Virus record (IMG/VR): IMGVR_UViG_3300011189_000044
Coordinates: 1-24,435 of that record
Strand: one strand, 5' to 3'
DNA length: 24,435 nt
Source of the DNA: a virus
The translations under genes and the position numbers were made by a program. The notes under the pieces are model-generated. The model searched no databases and was not told where the DNA came from. It was given only the letters and a program-made list of their open reading frames with translations. This document shows positions 7,615 through 24,201 of this stretch, in pieces. Every line of letters starts with the position of its first letter. Position 1 is the first letter of the stretch.

Positions 7615-10600
7615 ATGACTCAAGAGTCCCGCCTGGTCATCGTGATTGACTCAAGAAATGCTGAGCGTAATGCGCGTGCAGTTGCCAGCGAGCTGGAAAA
7701 TCTAACCAAGAAAGGCGATCAAGCTGAAACTCAGATGACGGCAATGGGCGCTTCGATTAAAAGCCTTGTTGGTTATATGGGTGGGATTTTGACTATCAAC
7801 AAGGCTATTGCTATGGCCGACGATTATACGCAGATGGCTGCACGTATTCGCAATGCAACTGCAAATGCTGAAGAATATGCGATGGTGCAGGATCGTTTGC
7901 TCAACACAGCTAATACGACTTATCGACAACTTGGCGAAGCTCAAGAAGTGTATTTAAGTATGGCTGGTGGTATGAAGTCGCTTGGCTATCAAACCAAAGA
8001 AACCTTGGAACTAACAGACTCACTTTCTTTTAGTTTTACTCACAATGCAACCCGAGTTGACCAAGCGCAGTCAGCAATGGATGCATTAAGTAAATCTATG
8101 GCTAAGGGTAAGGTTGATGGTGATGCGTGGATTTCAATTGTTACTGGTGCAGACAATATCATTGCTGATATGGCCAAAACCACAGGTCAAACAGAAGCTG
8201 AAATTCGTCGCTTGGGGGCAGAAGGTAAAGCATCACTAGACGATCTAATCAAAACCCTGATCACTACTCGTGAACAAAATGAAAAGCTTGCCAATAATAT
8301 GGAGAACAGCCTAGCGGATGGTTTTACGAAATTGTCTAATGAGGTGACTGTTTATCTCGGAAAAGCCAACGAAGCAACGAGTGCTACAGGAATATTAGCA
8401 GGCGGGTTGAGTAGTTTGGCAGATAACCTGGACTTGGTTGCAAATACTGGTGCAGCACTGGGTTTGGGATATGTGACTACTGCATTACTAACAAAAGGTG
8501 CTGCTGTTAAACAAAGTCTTGTTGATTCAGCGGCTCGTCGTGTGGCTGATCAGGCTGAAATCCAATCGCAAGTACAGTTGGCTGCTGTTGAGGTTCAGCG
8601 TACACGTCAAATTACCGCTTTAGCTGCTCAAGAGGTTCATCTAGCAAGACTGGAGCTAAATTCTGCTACCACCCGAGATGCACGTGCAGCAGCAACAATG
8701 CGCCTAACTCAAGCAGAAGTAGCTCTTAATATTGCAACTAAAAATACTACGACTGCTACAGCCACTTATAGCGCCGCTCAAGCCGCAGCCACAACAACGT
8801 CACTAACATTGGCTAGCGCTGCAAGATCAGCCTTAGCTTTTATGACGGGACCGGTTGGTCTCGGTATTACGGTGGCAACGGTTGCAGCCGGATACCTACT
8901 GCTGGGCGACAATTCAGAAAAGACCACGGTTTCATTGCGTGAAAACAATGAGGCAGTAAATGATGCTATTCAAAAATACCGCGAGCTAGATGATGTTCAA
9001 AAGCGCGGGCAACAGGCAGCTGAGAAGGCAAAGTTATCTGAACTAGCTGAGGGTTATAAGGAATTAACAACCGACTTAAATACCAATGCATACGCCTTGA
9101 GTCGACACAATGATTTCACTCAGGAGCAATCTCGTGAGGTAAATGCATTAATTGCTGAATTTAAGCAAACAGGTGATTTAGATAAGTTTTCTGCGGCGAT
9201 TAATAAACTTTCTTTTGTGAGTCAGGACTCTAAAGATAAGTTTAACGCTCTGGCTGGGCAGGTTCGCACTTCTGGAAATGAATATAAAAACCAGAAGCAA
9301 TTTGTTGATGCAATGACCAACTCCCTAAATCAAAATGGCGCTGCGGGAGATAACGCAGCAAGAGGGATTAGAAATGCAGCTGAGGCAGTAGCGGAATACA
9401 CAGGTAAATTGAAATCCCAGCAATGGGATTTGGAGTTTACTAATGCGCTTGTTCAAAAACATGGGAAGTCAGCGCAGGAAGCAGATTTGCTTTTGCAGGC
9501 TTACCGTGAAAACGAAAAAAAAGGCATCAAAGGTGTAACAGCTGAACAAAAGAAAATTATTAGCAACATTGAGGCTCAAAGGCGTTCATCTGATGCTTAT
9601 AACAAGGCCCAAGCAGATGCATTGGCAAGGCAGAAAAAAGCTGCCAAAGAAACCACATCTCAATCTCAGAAAGACAAAAAAGAGGCCGAAAGACTAGCTA
9701 AAGAGCAATTCGATTTACGGGAACAGATTGTTTATGAAAGTGCGCACAGAGAAAAGCAAATTGAATTAGATCTTGCAAGGGAAATTGCTGAAATTCGTAA
9801 AGCTAAATTTAACCCAAAAGATACAGCTGGACTTATTGGCAATGCTGAGGCACGTGCTGGCTATGAAAAGGAGTTATATACCGAGCAACTTAAATATCAA
9901 CTAAATGAATGGCAGTGGACGGAAGAGGAAAAGCTAGATCAGCGTGTCAAAATTAATCGATTATTAATCCTGTCTAGTCGAGAGTTGACTGACACAAACA
10001 AGCAATACAACTTGGATTCAATGGTTGATCAAAGTAATCACGAACTCGCTCTAATCAAGCTTTCACAAGAAACTCGCCTCTTTCAAATGCGTGAAGCTCT
10101 CATGTCCGAAACCACAGCCATGCAGGAGCGTTATCGCTTAGAACGCGAGCAGATCCTTCTAAACTCAAAGTTAAGCCAAGAGCAAAAACTGCGTGAAATT
10201 GCTTTAAGCAAGGCTTTGCAGGAGGAAGAAAACCGCAAGCGTTTAAATAGCGCAGTTCAGCAATGGGGTGGCATCAATGCTGAGCTGACAGGTACTACAG
10301 ATCAATTTAATCTTGAGAAAGAGCGATTTGATCGACTGGATAAATCGCAAGCACTGTTTGATGCTGAGTTGGCGATGGCTGGTGAAAACTATGCATTAAA
10401 GGAGCAGGCGTATCAGGCTCATGTCGACAGAATGACTGCAATTGAGAATGCTTATAGTGTTTCATCACTCCAGCTTCAACTTGGTTATGGTCAACAAATG
10501 GCTTCCAGTATGTCTAGCATGATGGGGGCTATCTTCGGCGAAAAATCAAAAGCTTATGCAGCAGCTTTTGCTGTTGAAAAGGCCTTTGCTGTGGCGCAAG

Positions 10601-11175
10601 CTGCAATTGCAATGGGGCAAAATATTGCTCAGGCGTCTGCGATTGGCTTCCCCCAAAACATTCCTATGATTGCTGGTGCTATGGCGCAAGGTGCCCAGAT
10701 TGCTTCAATTATTGCATCCGTAGCGGCACCTACTGGGTATTCTGATGGTGGCTTCACTGGTTATGGGGGCAAGTTTGATCCCGCAGGTATTGTTCATAAG
10801 GGTGAGGTAGTTTGGTCGCAAGAGGATATTAAGCGCTGGGGTGGTGTAAACGTTGTTGAGGCTATGCGCACGTCACAGCCGCCAAAAGGTTACTCAGATG
10901 GTGGTTTAGTCACCCCACAAGATACATATCGTGTAGGAATGGGAACCGTGGAAGCAATTAATCGCAATTCTGATGTGCAAGCTGAACGGCAGGCTCAGGC
11001 GAGTGCTAAATCACAGCAATCTTCATCAAATGGCATGCAGGGTCTTACGATTATCAATCAAATTGAACAGGAGGATTTGGTTGGTGGTTATTTTAGAAAG
11101 CCTGCTGCTGGGCAGTTAATTTTAAACCTCATTAAGGCAAATCCTTCTGAGTTTAGGCGCGCACTAGGAGTGTAA
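7615..11175 (+). CDS. Tail tape measure protein
   Basis: The largest gene, 1186 residues. An N-terminal tape-measure domain covers about residues 40-250 ('MADDYTQMAARIRNAT', 'YRQLGEAQEVYLSMAGGM', 'SMAKGKVDGDAWISI'). Two hydrophobic stretches follow, about 275-292 and 405-431, then long coiled-coil-forming helices rich in Gln, Glu, Ala and Lys (about 600-900). Near the C-terminus (about 1041-1085) is the conserved 'YSDGGFTGYGGKFDPAGIVH' and 'KGEVVWSQEDIKRWGGV' region seen at the end of many siphovirus tape measures. The protein sets tail length; with the usual helix rule of about 1.5 angstrom per residue, the tail would be some 170-180 nm. AGGAAAG precedes the ATG. It is the first gene after the accessory block. 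Confidence 0.93.
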   Translation: MTQESRLVIVIDSRNAERNARAVASELENLTKKGDQAETQMTAMGASIKSLVGYMGGILTINKAIAMADDYTQMAARIRNATANAEEYAMVQDRLLNTANTTYRQLGEAQEVYLSMAGGMKSLGYQTKETLELTDSLSFSFTHNATRVDQAQSAMDALSKSMAKGKVDGDAWISIVTGADNIIADMAKTTGQTEAEIRRLGAEGKASLDDLIKTLITTREQNEKLANNMENSLADGFTKLSNEVTVYLGKANEATSATGILAGGLSSLADNLDLVANTGAALGLGYVTTALLTKGAAVKQSLVDSAARRVADQAEIQSQVQLAAVEVQRTRQITALAAQEVHLARLELNSATTRDARAAATMRLTQAEVALNIATKNTTTATATYSAAQAAATTTSLTLASAARSALAFMTGPVGLGITVATVAAGYLLLGDNSEKTTVSLRENNEAVNDAIQKYRELDDVQKRGQQAAEKAKLSELAEGYKELTTDLNTNAYALSRHNDFTQEQSREVNALIAEFKQTGDLDKFSAAINKLSFVSQDSKDKFNALAGQVRTSGNEYKNQKQFVDAMTNSLNQNGAAGDNAARGIRNAAEAVAEYTGKLKSQQWDLEFTNALVQKHGKSAQEADLLLQAYRENEKKGIKGVTAEQKKIISNIEAQRRSSDAYNKAQADALARQKKAAKETTSQSQKDKKEAERLAKEQFDLREQIVYESAHREKQIELDLAREIAEIRKAKFNPKDTAGLIGNAEARAGYEKELYTEQLKYQLNEWQWTEEEKLDQRVKINRLLILSSRELTDTNKQYNLDSMVDQSNHELALIKLSQETRLFQMREALMSETTAMQERYRLEREQILLNSKLSQEQKLREIALSKALQEEENRKRLNSAVQQWGGINAELTGTTDQFNLEKERFDRLDKSQALFDAELAMAGENYALKEQAYQAHVDRMTAIENAYSVSSLQLQLGYGQQMASSMSSMMGAIFGEKSKAYAAAFAVEKAFAVAQAAIAMGQNIAQASAIGFPQNIPMIAGAMAQGAQIASIIASVAAPTGYSDGGFTGYGGKFDPAGIVHKGEVVWSQEDIKRWGGVNVVEAMRTSQPPKGYSDGGLVTPQDTYRVGMGTVEAINRNSDVQAERQAQASAKSQQSSSNGMQGLTIINQIEQEDLVGGYFRKPAAGQLILNLIKANPSEFRRALGV

Positions 11176-12321
11176 ATGAAAATCCAAACTACACTTTTTG
11201 GTGAATTGGTTTTACTGGACCAGTGCACGCTTGTAGGATCGTCTGAAAGTCTAGGATTTCAAACTTACGTCAACAGTTCACACAATGGCACTGAGAAACG
11301 AAAAGCTTTACGTGAAACCGCATCTCAAGTTTTGAATATTGATTATGTGGTGGCACGTCAGGCCTTGGCGCAGAACTTCAATGTGTTGTGGGGTGGTTTA
11401 CGTAAACTGTGGGCCATTCCTGTTGATGTAGAGTGGCAGCGGATTAGTGGTGTGGATGGTGATTTTATTGAATGTGTAACTTCAATTTATGATTTCCGAA
11501 ACGATTCCTTAGCATTGCTTAAGCATAAGGACGGTCTAACCGTTGTTGAAATCAAAGAGGTACTAGCCAATGGTCTAAAACTTTATGAGTCGATCATCTT
11601 GCAGAATTTCACTATACGCCCACTTCGAGTGGGCTTTATTTTGGGTGATGTATCGGCACCCATCAATGCAGTTTATGGTCAACCAAGTCTTCAGTTTCAG
11701 GTGATGGATGCACCTTATCTGCAAGTACCAGTCCCCGTGCAGTTTCTTGGACATGACATTTACTTTAAGCGTTTATTGCTTGAGGGAGATGCGTTAAATG
11801 TCACCGTACTGCAGCACCAGACTGTGGTGGATTTTGGATTAGGGCCGATTGATCAGCATAGCAACTGGCTACATGCCCGTTACGGCAAACCGATGCGAAC
11901 AGTGATGAAAGGTCAGCAAGCCTTGTTTGAGTATCGACAGTTTCTATTTCGCCGACTGGGACAATATCGCGCATTTTGGTTGCCAACATTTGAGCGCAAT
12001 TTTTATGTCAAAAGTACTGGGACGATTTCAACTGTGATTGACGTTGAGTTGAACCAGTACCAGGAATATGCCTCGAATCGAAAGCATATCGCCATTCAAG
12101 ACAAGTCAGGCAATTGGACTGCACATAGCATTTCAAATGCAGCGCAAACCAGTAACACACTGAGACTCACCATTACACCGGCACTCAATAAAGCTGCTGT
12201 GGATATTCGAATGATCAGCTATTTAGGTCTTCATCGGCTCAATAACGATTCAGTGGATATTCAATATAAAGGTGCAGGCATCACTGAGTCTTCAGTTGCC
12301 ATTTTGGAAATTGAGCCATGA
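11176..12321 (+). CDS. Distal tail protein (Dit-like)
   Basis: A 381-residue protein that begins immediately after the tape measure stop, with GGAGTG as ribosome-binding site. Its place between tape measure and the BR0599-type hub matches the distal tail protein of siphoviruses and of the Rhodobacter gene transfer agent (g12). The N-terminus is mainly beta strand; the segment 'QQALFEYRQFLFRRLGQYRAF' (in two parts) with 'WLPTFERNFYV' is the most distinctive and resembles the 'W.p.....f' strand of the DUF2460/distal tail group. The last 80 residues are beta-rich and could be a carbohydrate-binding-like addition. Its stop overlaps the next start (ATGATGA). Role: hexameric ring that joins tail tube to tip. 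Confidence 0.65.
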   Translation: MKIQTTLFGELVLLDQCTLVGSSESLGFQTYVNSSHNGTEKRKALRETASQVLNIDYVVARQALAQNFNVLWGGLRKLWAIPVDVEWQRISGVDGDFIECVTSIYDFRNDSLALLKHKDGLTVVEIKEVLANGLKLYESIILQNFTIRPLRVGFILGDVSAPINAVYGQPSLQFQVMDAPYLQVPVPVQFLGHDIYFKRLLLEGDALNVTVLQHQTVVDFGLGPIDQHSNWLHARYGKPMRTVMKGQQALFEYRQFLFRRLGQYRAFWLPTFERNFYVKSTGTISTVIDVELNQYQEYASNRKHIAIQDKSGNWTAHSISNAAQTSNTLRLTITPALNKAAVDIRMISYLGLHRLNNDSVDIQYKGAGITESSVAILEIEP

Positions 12322-13376
12322 TGAAATTTTTTACTCGATTGCTCGGTAATGGGCAATCAACCATTGCCAAGCGGGAACTGTATCTCTTCCAAACGGGCAA
12401 TGTACAACGTGCCTATACCAATGGAGATGCCTTTATTGAGCATGCGGGTCTGGTGTATGAGCCGCACGTGATTAAACGTGGTTCGCATAAGTCTGGACGA
12501 GACTTAGAGAAGCAAACCATGGAGATAGAGTTTTCATTGCTTTCAGTATTCGCCCAGAATCTTTCCCGTTCTGAACTTGAAGAAATCACCACAGTTCAAA
12601 TGTTCAGTTATGAAGGGGTTGAGTTTAGACAGTTTTGGTCGGGGCGCTTGACCAAAGTCAAACCGCATGATGAAGGCATTAAACTTCAATTTGAAACGGA
12701 ATACACCAAGGTGGGGCGTAATGCGGTGACTCGAAAGATTCAAGCCACATGCCCTTATCGATTGTTTGATCAAGATTGTCGATTGGCCAAGGCAAATTAT
12801 GCGGTGAAGGCCACCATCAAAAGCGTGGATAAGTTGAACATGGAACTACGTGGCCTAGAAGCTTATGCAGACAATTATTTTCTGATTGGCATGATTGAAG
12901 ATCCAAGCGGGGTGTTGATTACCATTGATAGCAGTAAAGGCAATCAGCTTGTTTTAAAGCGGCGCTTTGATTCGTTTAGCAATATTGCAATTAGCGATGC
13001 TGAATATACGGCATTAATGGATGACATTGCCTTAAAAACTCAGGCATTGGCAGATGCTCAAGCTACATTGGCACTGAAACAAACGGCCTATGATCAAGCG
13101 CTTGAGGCATTGAATAATGCAGCCCCTGAAGATCCCAATTATCAGGACTTGGTGGATGCGCTTGCACTGGCTGAAACCGAAAAAAATGCAGCAGCCTCTA
13201 CAATCCCGATTGCTGAAGCTGAACTTCGCTCCGCTGAAGAAGCCGTGCCTTATGTGACGCTTTATCCTGGTTGCTTAAAAACACCGGATGCATGTAAGGC
13301 CTATTCCAATCTGCCGAATTATGGCGGTTTTCCTTTTGTTCCGGGTGATAACCCGCTTGTTAGACAGGTGGTGTGA
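12318..13376 (+). CDS. Tail tip hub, DUF2163/BR0599 family, with coiled-coil insert
   Basis: A 352-residue protein. Residues 1-140 fit the DUF2163 N-terminal domain ('YEPHVIKRGSHKSGRDLEK' and 'FRQFWSGRLTKV'). Residues 141-227 and 311-352 form the BR0599 C-terminal domain with its cysteines: 'CPYRLFDQDCRL' (C145, C154) and 'YPGCLKTPDACKAYSNLPNY' (C319, C326), then 'GGFPFVPGDNP'. The cysteines probably bind metal, an iron-sulfur cluster or form disulfides at the tip. Between these halves, residues about 228-310 are an Ala/Gln/Glu-rich predicted coiled coil that is not part of the usual family domain. The equivalent in the gene transfer agent is g13. ATG overlap with the preceding stop implies coupled translation. 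Confidence 0.85.
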   Translation: MMKFFTRLLGNGQSTIAKRELYLFQTGNVQRAYTNGDAFIEHAGLVYEPHVIKRGSHKSGRDLEKQTMEIEFSLLSVFAQNLSRSELEEITTVQMFSYEGVEFRQFWSGRLTKVKPHDEGIKLQFETEYTKVGRNAVTRKIQATCPYRLFDQDCRLAKANYAVKATIKSVDKLNMELRGLEAYADNYFLIGMIEDPSGVLITIDSSKGNQLVLKRRFDSFSNIAISDAEYTALMDDIALKTQALADAQATLALKQTAYDQALEALNNAAPEDPNYQDLVDALALAETEKNAAASTIPIAEAELRSAEEAVPYVTLYPGCLKTPDACKAYSNLPNYGGFPFVPGDNPLVRQVV

Positions 13377-13596: not shown

Positions 13597-13814
13597 AAAT
13601 TTACATTCGGCATATTCGGGCTGCGAAGTATTGCAGAAAAGAGGGCGTTAAGCCCTTTTTTGATGCCCACCATTGGGACTGGTCAGATTTCTTGGCCAAT
13701 GGAATTGATGCCCAAAAGCTGATTGATACACAAGATGCCATGGCTTTAAACGTCGTAAAGATTGCACAGGAAGAACACAATGAGCGGTGGAAAAAAACAG
13801 ACATACGCACATAA
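13593..13814 (+). CDS. Small conserved tail-region protein
   Basis: A 73-residue soluble protein with pattern 'IRHIRAAKYCRKEGVKPFF' then 'HHWDWSDFLANGIDAQKL' and 'DAMALNVVKIAQEE'. I have seen this arrangement (R-x-A-x-Y-C, then W-x-x-F-L-x-x-G-I and D-A-x-A-L-x-V-V) in small proteins next to tip genes of B3/JBD30-like Pseudomonas phages and other siphoviruses; no function is established to my knowledge. It overlaps the previous gene by four bases and the next by 35, so all are translated as a unit. No NlpC/P60 peptidase gene, which often lies at this point in related tail modules, is present. Confidence 0.65.
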   Translation: MKIYIRHIRAAKYCRKEGVKPFFDAHHWDWSDFLANGIDAQKLIDTQDAMALNVVKIAQEEHNERWKKTDIRT

Positions 13815-16569
13815 ATACTATGCAGGTTGGCAAGCCGTTCTTGCCCATGCAGGGTGCTTTCTTCGTCGAATTTGGGTAGAAGATAAAGAAGCTTGGTATG
13901 GCGGGATGGGCAATGGCTCAAGCCGTATTGCGCAGCAAAATTTATTTGGCGGCCATGATGTAGGTGGTGGTGGCGGGGTAACGGGTAATTTTAATTATTA
14001 CACGGGTTCTCCAAACCAAATGCCAGATCCTTATTTAGAAAAAAAGTTAGGTGTAGGTAATGTCCCTGCTTCACGCGGTGTTTGTTCGTTTGTATGGAAG
14101 CAGGGATATTTCGGAACATCCAATTATATGAAGGATTGGAAATACCGACTTTCATATGTGAATGGAATTAAGCCGACCTTTATTGATGGTGTGACCAACA
14201 TTGTGATTGCAATGGACAGCTCAATGTCTATGACTGAGGAAGATTTTTTATTCTTCACAACGTCTGGTGTTGCACGAATGATTGGGTTAATTGGGGATTT
14301 GGTGGCGGTATATGATGGATCAATAATTAATCTTCGATTAATGTTCTTTGATGCATCACTCCATATTAAAGATTATGTTGGGTTCACAGAAGATGATGTG
14401 CCGGATGCTATTGCTTGGATAAATGCTAAACGTCAAGTTAGCGGGGTGTCCATTTCCAGTATGATCAGTTCGGCTGAGAGCTTTTTAAATACACACCAAA
14501 CAGAACATTGTCGTCGAATATTTATACCTATGCATGATGGGTGGGATGTAACCCCTGCTGTTATTGAGCAGTTTCAATCCATGTTTCATGACACTTCTGT
14601 TTATCAAACCCATACCTTTTCATCAGCAAGTGTTGATTTTGTTCCATTAAATGCCTTGCTTCTGCAGGCGGATAATACCCCAGAAGATAATACGGGGCTT
14701 GGAGCATTTGTGCCTCACTTTGCACCAGGTGATGCTGAAGCAGTTTTTAATATTGAGGCTTGGTTTGGGGTGCGCTCAGGTGAGCCTGATATGAATCCAG
14801 CGGATATGTTGTGGACCTGTATCACCAACACTGCGTGGGGGATGGGTCAGCCTGAAGATATGCTGGACAAAGATAGCTTTTTAAATGCTTGGGCGGTGCT
14901 CAACCAAGAAGACATGTATATGTCGATCGTGTTTGATGATGAGGGTGAGATTGAGAAAATCATCGACTTGATCTGTGAGCACATCGATGCAGTGTGTACG
15001 GTCGATAGTCGCACCAACAAGTGGGTATTAACCCTGGTTCGAGATGACTATGTTGCAGATGACTTACTGATCCTTGATGAGTCGACTATTGGCAAGATTT
15101 CAGATTATGAAATCCGTACTGCAGCAGAGCAAATCAATCAGATTACCGTGACCTATTGGGAGAAAGAAACAGGCAAAGATGCCACGGTGACAGCACAAGA
15201 TCCTGCACGTATTGCTCAAAATGGCTTGGTGAATAAGTCAGTGACTTATGATGGCTTTACCAATGCCAAGACCGCTTATACAGCTGCTGAACGTGATTTA
15301 AAAGCGCTTTCTAGTCCTCTGAAAATCGTCACGCTCAACAATGTTGATCCCGATACTGCATTGCAGTTGAAAGAAGGCAATGCCTTTCGGTGGAATTGGG
15401 CAGCACATGGCGTGGATGGGGCGGTGATGCGCGTCAATTCAATTGACTATGGCGATGACCACAACTTTGGGGCAACGATTGAAGCCATTGAGGATGTGTT
15501 TAGTACGCCGATGAACTCTGTGGTGCCCTATGTACCACCGTATGAGAACCCAGCCAATCAAGCACCGCTTGATAATCCTCATGTCCGTGTACTTGAGCTT
15601 CAATACTATGATGCGGTGCAATTTGCCACTGAGTCAGAAGTGAATGCTGATCTTGCAGATGAGCCTACTTTGTCACGCGTTGCTGTGGTGGCCCCACGTG
15701 GTCAACAAAATGCCATGTCGGCTGAGATCTATGTGGATTCCGGTTCAGGCTATGCTTCAAAGGCAACTTTGGATTATTGCCCAAGTGCAGAATTGGCACA
15801 GGCCATTGGCAAAATGGAATCTACATTCTCAATTCGCAAAGTCGAGGATTTAGAAGAAATTGAGCTGGGTAAATGGATCTTGGTCAATGGTGAGCATATG
15901 GCAGTGACCGCCATCAGTGAAACTGAAATTACGGTCAAACGTGGGGTGAACTATACCGTTCCGCAGGATCATGCTGCAGGTTCGTTGATCCTATTTTGTG
16001 ATGACTACATTGCACTGGATGAAACGGATTACTTTGCGGGTGAATCGCTCAATGTGAAGGCACTCACCAAGACGGGATCGGCACAGCTTGCGCTTGGATC
16101 AGCAACGGCACATACATTGGAGATGGCGGGATTAGCAAACCGACCTTATCCACCTGGTAATTATAAAATTAAGGGTGAGTATTTTCCTGATTCAATTTAT
16201 GGAGTTTGTGAGCTAACTTGGGTTGGTCGAAATAGACTTCAACAAACAGGTGGAATAGCTATTGGTTTTATAGATGGACATATTAATCCAGAAGAAAACA
16301 CATCTTATATTGTTCGCGTCAAAAACCCTAACTCAGGTGTTGTAGTCTTTGAAAGCAGTGAAATTATTGAACACTCATTTTTATTAGATACAGAACTTAT
16401 CCCGCTAACTATTGCGAAAATAGAGATTTATTCAAAACGAGGTGGTTATGAGTCACTTTATGCCCAATCATGTGTTTCAAATATTATCAAGGCAGGTATT
16501 TCTTTCAAGTTCGAAGATGTTGAATATATCCCTCCAGTCGGTAGTGAAGTTGACTTTACATTTGAATAA
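13780..16569 (+). CDS. Tail tip attachment protein (J/megatron-like) with inserted VWA domain
   Basis: The ATG at 13780, with AGGAAG at 13768-13773, gives 929 residues; a TTG at 13762 is less likely. Residues 1-125 are the usual J/megatron N-terminus ('YAHKYYAGWQAVLAHAG', 'FGGHDVGGGGGVTG', 'VPASRGVCSFVWKQGYFGT', 'DWKYRLSYVNG'). The family then normally runs quickly to 'DMNPADMLWTCITNTAWGMG' (337-356). Here some 200 residues intervene, with 'IVIAMDSSMSMTEEDF' (D146-S-S-M-S150, the DxSxS MIDAS motif), 'SGVSISSMISSA' (221-232) and 'RRIFIPMHDGWD' (D253-G254), the three metal-site elements of a von Willebrand A domain. Residues 337-580 form the hub/Phage-tail_3 part, and the end (about 788-929) is an FN3-like module that is more AT-rich. 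Role: tail tip and receptor contact. Confidence 0.85.
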   Translation: MSGGKKQTYAHKYYAGWQAVLAHAGCFLRRIWVEDKEAWYGGMGNGSSRIAQQNLFGGHDVGGGGGVTGNFNYYTGSPNQMPDPYLEKKLGVGNVPASRGVCSFVWKQGYFGTSNYMKDWKYRLSYVNGIKPTFIDGVTNIVIAMDSSMSMTEEDFLFFTTSGVARMIGLIGDLVAVYDGSIINLRLMFFDASLHIKDYVGFTEDDVPDAIAWINAKRQVSGVSISSMISSAESFLNTHQTEHCRRIFIPMHDGWDVTPAVIEQFQSMFHDTSVYQTHTFSSASVDFVPLNALLLQADNTPEDNTGLGAFVPHFAPGDAEAVFNIEAWFGVRSGEPDMNPADMLWTCITNTAWGMGQPEDMLDKDSFLNAWAVLNQEDMYMSIVFDDEGEIEKIIDLICEHIDAVCTVDSRTNKWVLTLVRDDYVADDLLILDESTIGKISDYEIRTAAEQINQITVTYWEKETGKDATVTAQDPARIAQNGLVNKSVTYDGFTNAKTAYTAAERDLKALSSPLKIVTLNNVDPDTALQLKEGNAFRWNWAAHGVDGAVMRVNSIDYGDDHNFGATIEAIEDVFSTPMNSVVPYVPPYENPANQAPLDNPHVRVLELQYYDAVQFATESEVNADLADEPTLSRVAVVAPRGQQNAMSAEIYVDSGSGYASKATLDYCPSAELAQAIGKMESTFSIRKVEDLEEIELGKWILVNGEHMAVTAISETEITVKRGVNYTVPQDHAAGSLILFCDDYIALDETDYFAGESLNVKALTKTGSAQLALGSATAHTLEMAGLANRPYPPGNYKIKGEYFPDSIYGVCELTWVGRNRLQQTGGIAIGFIDGHINPEENTSYIVRVKNPNSGVVVFESSEIIEHSFLLDTELIPLTIAKIEIYSKRGGYESLYAQSCVSNIIKAGISFKFEDVEYIPPVGSEVDFTFE

Positions 16570-21896: not shown

Positions 21897-21929
21897 GCTG
21901 CGCTACTTATAAGTTGCGCAGCTGTTTTT
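21897..21929. terminator. Bidirectional terminator between 85-aa gene and chrA
   Basis: GCTGCGC / GCGCAGC stem, extended after a T-T mismatch by ACT/AGT around TATA (21897-21922), then TG and five T on the + strand. On the - strand the hairpin is followed by CAATTTTAT, so it can also end the chrBA transcript. It lies between the convergent genes, whose stops are 21815 and 21929. Confidence 0.75.
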
Positions 21930-23278
21930 CAGATTATGAGCTTAATTACTAATCCTAGTAACGCCGAACCGATGATGACTCGGAGCACACTCTGATTAAA
22001 CTTAAATAATGCGACTATAGCTAAAATAGCAATAATGGCAGAAATATAATCAAAACTTCCTTCAAAGCCCTTTGGCCAAAGCACGTGGTAACATAAAAAG
22101 AGAGCTAAATTCAGAATTACACCCACCACGGCAGCGGTAATGGCTGTTAAAGGGGCTGTGAATCTAATTTGATTATGCGTGGACTCTATGACAGGCGCCC
22201 CCGCTAAAATGAAGAAAAATGAGAAAATAAACGTAAACCAAGTGACAATGATTGCACCTAATGCACCCGCAATAAATTGATGCTCAACACCTAATAGAGA
22301 TTGATTGTAAGCCGCCAAGAAGCCGACAAAAGCCACCACCATGATCAACGGACCAGGAGTACTTTCACCTAGAGCTAGTCCATCAATCATTTGAGTTGGT
22401 GTCAGCCAGTGATAAAAACCGACGGCCCCCTGATATACGTAAGGCAGAACAGCATAAGCTCCCCCGAATGTCATAAGAGCAGCTTTAGTAAAAAACCAAG
22501 CAAGTTGAGTATAAGAATGACTCCATCCAAAAATTGCTGTTAAAGAGATGAGCGGAATTAGCCATAAAAGTGCTGAGATTACTGCTATTTTGATTAGATG
22601 CGACCATTTAAAAATGGCGTGTTCAGGTGTGGGAGTGTCGTCATCAATAATTGCACGACCATAAGATTTTTGACTGGAATGATGTGCATTTACCTGAAAT
22701 AACTCTGGAAGCTTTTTACCTGCGAAATAGCCTGATATAGCTGCACATAGAACAATTAAAGGGAAAGGGACATTAAAAATAAATATTGCAATAAAAGCGA
22801 CAACTGCAATTGCCCATAGAAATTTATTCTTTATTGATCGACTACCAATACGATAAGTGGCATGAAATACAATGGCTGCAACTGCTGGCTTAATGCCATA
22901 AAACAAGCCCGCAATGATCGGGACATCTGCATATTTAACATAAACCCAAGACAACCCGATCAGGATAAATAGAGAGGGTAAAACAAAGAAAACACCTGCA
23001 ACGATGCCTCCTTTGGTTTTATGCATTAACCAACCAATATAAGTTGCGAGTTGTTGAGCTTCAGGCCCAGGTAACAACATGCAATAGTTCAGAGCATGCA
23101 TAAACCGCTTTTCTGAAATCCATTTTTTTTCTTCAACCAGCTCTTGATGCATAACAGCAATTTGCCCAGCAGGGCCTCCAAAGCTGATGAATCCGAGTTT
23201 TAACCAAAATTTAAAAGCTTGCCAAAAGCTAATAGATTCAATTTCTATTTCATTTGACAAAGATGGCTTATTGTTCAT
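21929..23278 (-). CDS. chrA: Chromate transporter ChrA (long-chain, two-domain)
   Basis: A 449-residue inner-membrane protein of the CHR superfamily that exports chromate from the cytoplasm. Two homologous halves are visible. The N-terminal half has 'FWLKLGFISFGGPAGQI' (GGPAGQI at 34-40), 'ALNYCMLLPGPEAQQLATYI' (LPGPEAQQ at 69-76) and the first group of membrane segments. The C-terminal half has 'FFTKAALMTFGGAYAVLPY' and 'GLALGESTPGPLIM'. Some ten hydrophobic segments are recognisable. A His/Ser-rich loop (about residues 195-215) separates the halves. The start overlaps the chrB stop by four bases, so both are made from the chrB promoter, probably induced by chromate. Confidence 0.92.
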   Translation of the reverse strand: MNNKPSLSNEIEIESISFWQAFKFWLKLGFISFGGPAGQIAVMHQELVEEKKWISEKRFMHALNYCMLLPGPEAQQLATYIGWLMHKTKGGIVAGVFFVLPSLFILIGLSWVYVKYADVPIIAGLFYGIKPAVAAIVFHATYRIGSRSIKNKFLWAIAVVAFIAIFIFNVPFPLIVLCAAISGYFAGKKLPELFQVNAHHSSQKSYGRAIIDDDTPTPEHAIFKWSHLIKIAVISALLWLIPLISLTAIFGWSHSYTQLAWFFTKAALMTFGGAYAVLPYVYQGAVGFYHWLTPTQMIDGLALGESTPGPLIMVVAFVGFLAAYNQSLLGVEHQFIAGALGAIIVTWFTFIFSFFFILAGAPVIESTHNQIRFTAPLTAITAAVVGVILNLALFLCYHVLWPKGFEGSFDYISAIIAILAIVALFKFNQSVLRVIIGSALLGLVIKLII

Positions 23279-24201
23279 GCTAAATTCCTTTGAAAGTCTG
23301 CATACAAGCCATCAAAAATATGGTTTGAAAGCTGGAGTAATTGATCATCATTTGTGATCGTGCTTCTGAGACCTTGTAAGATTTTTTCAATACCTAATGC
23401 TTCAGCAGGCTCATTTCCTCCAACATCTAAAAAATGAACAATTTCAGCGATTTTATTTAAAGCAGGGTTTTGTAATTTAAAGCTATGCATTAACACTTCA
23501 TAAGTGACTAGATTATTGATATGCGTAAATTTGGCATGATCAAAATCGAAACCTAAGGCATCCTTTGGGCAATCATCGGGGTGCTCTAACCAAATAAATT
23601 CTGCCTGAGGGTCTACAAATTTTTGAATGATCCATGCTGATGCCAAACGGTCAACCCAAGGACGCTTTCTAGTTGCCCAGATTTTATTTTGAAAATCTTG
23701 CTTGAATAGGACTTTTATTTGCTGTTCAAAATTATTGGGTTCATCATCTTCACCTAAACGAGCAATAGCATGTTCTAATCGGGTGAGTTCATTCAGTGTT
23801 TTACTTTGTTGAATATTGGGGAAAAAGTCTATTTCTACCAGTGAATTGATGGACTTTCTTAATTTTCGGATTTGTTTGAGATATTCTTTTTTCTTACTTT
23901 CTTCAAGCTTACTTTGTATTTGAGAAATTTCAGTTCTGAGTTCCTCATACTCTCCACTCCGATCAAAAAGTTGTCCCAGATCTAGATGTGCAGGAGCTTC
24001 AGCGTGAAAGATATAAGCATGTCCATTTTCATTGAAATGATCATCGATAACAGTATCAAATTTTTCAGAATGTATTGCTGGTAGGAGATAGACGCCATCT
24101 CTTAGTGTAGCTGCACCATTCGATTTTAATGAACGCCAAATTCGCATTCTGGCGGCAGTACTTTGACTAGGAGGTGATGATACAAGTAATGATAATTTCA
24201 T
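23275..24201 (-). CDS. chrB: Chromate resistance protein/regulator ChrB
   Basis: 308 residues; the family is about 300-320 residues and acts as a chromate-sensing regulator or helper of ChrA. The N-terminal domain has 'LLVSSPPSQSTAARMRIWRS' with 'GAATLRDGVYLLP', typical of ChrB. The middle is a long coiled coil (about residues 85-120). The C-terminal domain has 'WATRKRPWVDRLASAWIIQK', 'GFDFDHAKFTHINNLVTYEV' and 'IVHFLDVGG', with a conserved R-P-x-x-D-R-x-A-S-A-W pattern and carboxylates. The ATG (24199-24201) is part of an inverted repeat, and there is no strong ribosome-binding site. It overlaps chrA by four bases. Since the operator-like repeat includes its own start, autoregulation is likely. 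Confidence 0.9.
   Translation of the reverse strand: MKLSLLVSSPPSQSTAARMRIWRSLKSNGAATLRDGVYLLPAIHSEKFDTVIDDHFNENGHAYIFHAEAPAHLDLGQLFDRSGEYEELRTEISQIQSKLEESKKKEYLKQIRKLRKSINSLVEIDFFPNIQQSKTLNELTRLEHAIARLGEDDEPNNFEQQIKVLFKQDFQNKIWATRKRPWVDRLASAWIIQKFVDPQAEFIWLEHPDDCPKDALGFDFDHAKFTHINNLVTYEVLMHSFKLQNPALNKIAEIVHFLDVGGNEPAEALGIEKILQGLRSTITNDDQLLQLSNHIFDGLYADFQRNLA

Follow-up and report, generated by a model that had tools for sequence, protein, structure and literature searches.

The location of secondary adhesins in Gram-negative siphophages is poorly known. Phage JBD30 attaches to the pilus via the separate fibres gp47 and gp48 (PMC11445458). DLP4 uses type IV pili (PMC9206674) and has a hub of 772 amino acids (PMC6469090). 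Adhesion domains inserted in baseplate proteins are already known as a kind: roseophage R4C has a megatron with an inserted carbohydrate-binding domain, as well as a hub oligosaccharide-binding domain, which are proposed capsule binders (PMC10276861). In phage lambda gpJ, an FNIII-A insert lies in the HDII-insertion domain (PMC10721106). On metal-dependent adhesion sites (MIDAS) in phages we found a single paper, on haloviruses with AAA ATPase partners (PMC7911831). In the openly accessible literature, we found neither a tail hub of a phage described as carrying a von Willebrand A (VWA) domain nor a description of a hub socket. The VWA domain itself has already been noticed by annotation, as GenBank labels the tail protein of Bordetella phage MW2 'von Willebrand factor type A'.

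Here we analyze a 24.4-kb IMG/VR virus fragment (24,435 nucleotides, hereafter the window). Its hub shares both fold and sequence family with JBD30 gp53 (8rk3) and with the phage Chi tail-tip protein (8vjh), two proteins that have no domain at the site where the window's hub carries an insert of about 200 residues.

The hub gene and its insert

The window presents the siphophage order of tape measure, distal tail, upper baseplate and hub, with two small genes separating the upper baseplate gene from the hub gene. The main features are the following:

7615 to 11175: tape measure, upstream of the hub gene
11176 to 12321, plus strand: distal-tail-like tail protein (phrog_1082), between the tape measure and upper baseplate genes, without VWA
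12318 to 13376, plus strand: upper baseplate, gpL or GTA gp13-like partner protein (phrog_778, Phage_phiJL001_Gp84_N, Phage_BR0599)
13780 to 16569, plus strand: baseplate hub or tail tip protein, 929 amino acids from the ATG (PHROG and structure matches)
13786 to 14151, plus strand: N-terminal hub segment, residues 9-130, which aligns to the Chi and JBD30 hubs and is conserved in all relatives
14179 to 14775, plus strand: predicted inserted VWA domain, approximately residues 140-338 (VWA_2 in relatives, AlphaFold2, structural Z)
14791 to 15510, plus strand: post-insert hub segment (MNPADML..., residues 344-583), with invariant alignment columns, which aligns to JBD30 and Chi
16108 to 16566, plus strand: variable C-terminal part of the hub, approximately residues 783-935 (DNA identity to sisters about 30-70%)

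The hub reading frame is open from TTG 13762 to 16569, but the likely protein has 929 amino acids because a Shine-Dalgarno-like aggaag lies upstream of ATG 13780. We number residues from the TTG, which turns D146 of a preliminary description of this locus into D152. The protein matches the phrog_1101 tail protein (E 7e-201). It is a siphophage hub of the JBD30 gp53 or J type by sequence, with E-values of 4e-53 to 8vjh and 7e-50 to 8rk3 among the sequences of solved structures, and by fold, since the hub part of its AlphaFold2 model reaches Z 25.4 to Chi and 25.0 to JBD30 (VIA-align). The profile of the N-terminal segment is present in 151 of the 156 hub-holding reading frames.

Three further observations concern the window. 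The last 150 or so residues of the hub form a second variable module, just upstream of which the sisters are at least 90% identical. In the upper baseplate protein, a coiled-coil-like stretch of around 80 residues is added between the two Cys pairs; it is seen only in the window's group (the Cys-pair gap is 163 in the window and mostly 75-94 in others). Finally, a ChrA chromate transporter and ChrB adjoin SRAP and UmuDC-like genes at 21929-24201 on the minus strand; this region is possibly metal-resistance cargo of the phage or the host flank of a prophage.

The alignments with Chi and with JBD30 both break at window residue 127-130 and restart at residue 343-344, and residues ~131-343 are therefore inserted in comparison with both hubs of known structure. 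The conserved blocks are spaced by about 213 residues in the window versus about 24 (up to about 37) in insert-free relatives. Thus, the contrast drawn in the preliminary description between an insert of about 200 residues and a short spacer is borne out, and so is its main proposal of a VWA domain in a conserved tail hub protein; the segment is in frame. Its limits of 14155-14770 are close, but the domain itself spans approximately 14179-14775.

At E<=0.01, the Pfam VWA_2 profile matches 26 of the 29 inserts that belong to this family, the best of them with E 3.1e-13. The match of the window insert alone is weak (E 0.0041, 18.2 bits) and falls below the curated cut-off of 27. When the insert was searched with phmmer against the PDB sequences, the sole match was EZH2, which we judged to be due to chance; the VWA identity therefore rests on the family profile and on the fold. 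A tblastn search with the insert only returned no match at E<=0.01 among phages because the VWA diverges too fast. With the whole protein, 18 phage records had one place covering at least 80% of it.

The structure predicted by AlphaFold2 from 36 sequences (mean pLDDT 76.7) gave the VWA fold that the preliminary description had anticipated. In the VWA core, 10-residue blocks mostly have pLDDT between 80 and 93, with values falling towards the end of the domain. Modelled residues 130-330 superpose on the inter-alpha-inhibitor heavy chain (6fpy; Z 19.3, 174 aligned residues, rmsd 2.3), the Mfa5 pilus tip (6tnj; Z 18.7, 183 aligned, rmsd 2.7) and ANTXR2 (8fz4; Z 18.3, 170 aligned, rmsd 2.5). The insert model also matches integrin alpha M (Z 17.7) and the SpaC pilus adhesin (Z 17.3, VIA-align). 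On this modelling, the hub insert belongs to the VWA superfamily, with the predicted Rossmann-like VWA fold.

The metal site

The positions of the MIDAS in the window are the following:

14215 to 14229, plus strand: DxSxS motif, D152, S154 and S156 (DSSMS), from the alignment
14446 to 14448, plus strand: position of the MIDAS Thr, occupied by Val229 here and by Thr in most relatives
14536 to 14541, plus strand: Asp-Gly, D259 and G260 (within MHDGWD, 14530-14547), from the alignment

Of the three MIDAS elements reported in the preliminary description, DxSxS and DG hold. The Ser-rich second site (SGVSISS, 14440-14460) does not, as the Thr column corresponds to Val229.

We measured conservation in 36 non-redundant phage VWAs, which share less than 60% mutual identity and 29% on average. 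The five columns with the highest conservation coincide with the MIDAS positions (D152, S154, S156, 229 and D259), and this alignment provides strong evidence of selection on the metal site across the phage VWA family. The D/S/S triad is kept in 75 of 76 hub VWAs, the remaining one being a gap, and the third-loop Asp is found in all 76 (D259 of HDG in the window). At the Thr column, 67 of the 76 have Thr and the window has Val in an ungapped alignment. Its whole group of eight sequences has Val, Ala or Ile there, with Ser one residue later. In I domains, the MIDAS Thr ligates the metal in the open state. With the canonical Thr missing from its MIDAS, the window is a less certain case of metal-dependent ligand binding than its relatives. 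A separate motif near the end of the phage VWAs, DNT(P.DG) (window residues ~304-306), is conserved almost at the level of the MIDAS.

Occupants of the hub insertion site

We gathered the relatives through the conserved post-insert hub segment, which makes the sampling independent of the insert. Among 113 unique linkers and inserts, counts that describe the nearest 80 loci of each search and are not prevalences, 85 are long inserts of >=100 residues; the remainder are short linkers, with 17-37 residues and in most cases 24. A survey of VWA at this site, as the preliminary description had proposed, gives 30 among the 85 unique long inserts after trimming of the linkers. The others comprise a second family of 23, two families of nine, a family of three, one pair and nine singletons, one of which joins a family of nine by profile. 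In Pfam, the second family weakly resembles beta-galactosidase jelly-roll domains, and its AlphaFold2 model (pLDDT 86.6) matches the GH2 sugar-binding jelly roll across 133-147 residues with Z 12.6-14.4. For the family of three the match is Laminin_G_3 (LamG), with a best E of 5e-12, and one singleton has BNR repeats (E 1.7e-6). The two nine-member families gave no Pfam match, when all members of one and two members of the other were searched. All these families are mutually unrelated. In bacterial genomes, VWA occurs in 47 of 64 readable hubs, mostly in Rhodobacteraceae prophages. Some Mesorhizobium prophages (L185, L212, L217, L220 and L221) have inserts of about 360 residues with propeller-like repeats (YAVWS, VWSIPTG) at the same socket. 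The hub insertion site is real and widespread, and its occupants suggest that it is a plug-in socket for host-adhesion modules.

To follow the occupants in evolution we used a hub tree built without the insert, a quick tree under LG+G4. On this tree, VWA presence requires at least 15 changes, and well-supported branches make at least eight of these unavoidable. When every occupant type is counted, the number of changes is 43, and for the empty state it is only four. The single domain gain put forward in the preliminary description therefore does not stand, given that many different domains fill the site and that VWA alone has changed so often. Closely related hubs illustrate the turnover. Three loci with 92-93% identical hub segments (L107, L108 and L109) hold three unrelated inserts. 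The inserts of L016 and L066 differ, while their hubs are 95% and their upper baseplate proteins 91% identical. L017 has a VWA and L044 a jelly roll, in hubs that are 83-84% identical.

The VWA domain is also swapped as an allele within the window's own group, as DNA identity to its sisters and to locus L001 shows:

14233 to 14751, plus strand: allele-exchanged segment, residues 158-330

Compared with six sisters, the window is about 52-88% identical in DNA inside residues 158-330 (mostly below 80%) and about 85-98% identical in most flanking blocks. Compared with L001, it is mostly 97-100% identical inside and about 90-97% outside. In the VWA, the sisters differ from the window by a synonymous divergence of at least about 2, or by a saturated one, and L001 by 0.05; in the hub the value is 0.3-0.55 for both. 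The exchange limits lie just past DSSMSM on the left and near residue 330 on the right. The insert is thus diversified and exchangeable relative to its scaffold, as an adhesion module would be. A diversified tip on a conserved scaffold would be the usual look of parts that contact a receptor.

Predicted role and known systems

In our judgement the siphophage baseplate hub probably carries its VWA insert as an exchangeable adhesion module. Three VWA domains would be displayed by a hub trimer and may contact a host-surface protein or glycan, and this contact would help the tail to attach, or to remain attached, until the hub opens. Tolerance of unrelated domains of up to ~370 residues makes it most likely that the site faces the solvent. 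The common function of the occupants is most likely host-surface adhesion because those that are known include sugar-binding and lectin-like folds. Since the scaffold is unchanged, the module probably needs no specific tail partner. Phages with an empty site are common and JBD30 binds the pilus with separate fibre proteins; the module is therefore not essential for tail function and is probably an auxiliary or secondary adhesin. We infer that the VWA points outwards, that it binds to the host and that a metal ion is used. The pilus-tip adhesins Mfa5 and SpaC among the structural matches speak for adhesion, and the loss of the MIDAS Thr in the window's group speaks against it. An adhesion role, as predicted in the preliminary description, remains the best reading of the VWA, in view of a swappable site with unrelated occupants of binding type. 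The pilus binding also suggested there finds no support in the survey: the 772-residue hub of the pilus-using DLP4 is too short for the insert, while the VWA is present in the 945-amino-acid hub of PaMx28, a phage from the same genus, an argument from hub lengths only that weakens type IV pilus binding as the function of the VWA.

Elsewhere, VWA domains also act as structural or assembly modules. Alternatively, the hub VWA might have an internal assembly or scaffold function and bind a different protein of the baseplate, such as an upper-baseplate VWA or the tail fibres. In agreement with this, an N-terminal VWA occurs in the upper baseplate protein of 10 out of 30 sampled hub-VWA phages (loci L007, L008, L009, L011, L013, L014, L037, L038, L039 and L099) versus none of 83 without hub VWA, and three prophage loci of one assembly pair the two VWAs likewise. 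However, the pairing is not statistically independent, because it corresponds to only about three changes on the tree, and most hub-VWA phages, including the window, have no second VWA. Moreover, jelly rolls replace VWA in closely related hubs, as in L017 and L044, whose upper baseplate proteins are 81% identical. We consider this explanation unlikely.

Titanvirus-like Rhodobacter phages and their relatives, in which the hub site is empty, have a VWA in the distal-tail-like gene instead, as in RcTitan and in RcHartney (gp22, L018:1015-2769). Besides L018, this insertion occurs in L024, L025, L027, L028, L030, L031, L035, L166-L168 and L180; the hub site is empty in all these loci except prophage L180, which carries both VWAs. 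In some distal-tail-like VWAs the third loop is altered, with DA instead of DG. A jelly roll is also found at the start of the distal-tail-like protein. Modules of the same types therefore move among three baseplate genes. Where hub and upper baseplate both carry VWA, three copies of each would place up to six MIDAS domains round the tip and might couple metal-dependent ligand binding to hub opening, much as integrins combine adhesion with signalling, in a phage version; we regard this as quite improbable.

Another explanation is that the VWA works as a metal- or force-gated switch. Like an integrin I domain, it would shift its last helix when ligand binds at the MIDAS and so signal hub opening. 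The metal-site residues are indeed the most conserved columns, and hardly any residues separate the C-terminal end of the VWA from the conserved MNPA helix of the hub. Yet jelly-roll and propeller modules without such a helix switch fill the same site, and the window lacks the MIDAS Thr that is a metal ligand in the open state of I domains. We regard a switch as very unlikely. It is hardly tenable that the insert belonged to the tip family from its origin as a normal segment with no relation to VWA: many relatives do hold something at the site, but the linkers without a domain in JBD30, in Chi and in about 30 relatives, the mutually unrelated occupants and the VWA fold (Z up to 19) refute it.

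As an exchangeable adhesion module, the insert has wider implications. One defined hub socket for unrelated binding domains would predict from sequence which part of the hub contacts the host. Near-identical hubs that differ in one cassette form a natural set for testing the role of baseplate adhesins, and whether adsorption depends on metal becomes a testable question, given the conservation of MIDAS residues in a phage tail.

Among known systems, the tips of MW2 (APL99216.1), PaMx28, vB_SmaS_QH3, Elanor and Mallos have the same hub with a VWA at the same site. Their VWAs are about 14-23% identical to that of the window and have a full MIDAS with Thr, and several are accompanied by an upper-baseplate VWA. 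R4C resembles the window in having adhesion-type inserts in baseplate proteins, but these occupy other positions, are known from one phage and include no VWA. Lambda gpJ, a J-type hub, similarly has an extra domain in its N-terminal part, Ig-like rather than VWA; we considered its FNIII-A site as the same socket and set this aside, as residue counts point to a probably different loop. Mfa5, SpaC, integrin I domains and anthrax toxin receptors share with the phage insert the VWA fold with MIDAS, but they are cellular proteins, and their sequence kinship with it ends at the VWA superfamily.
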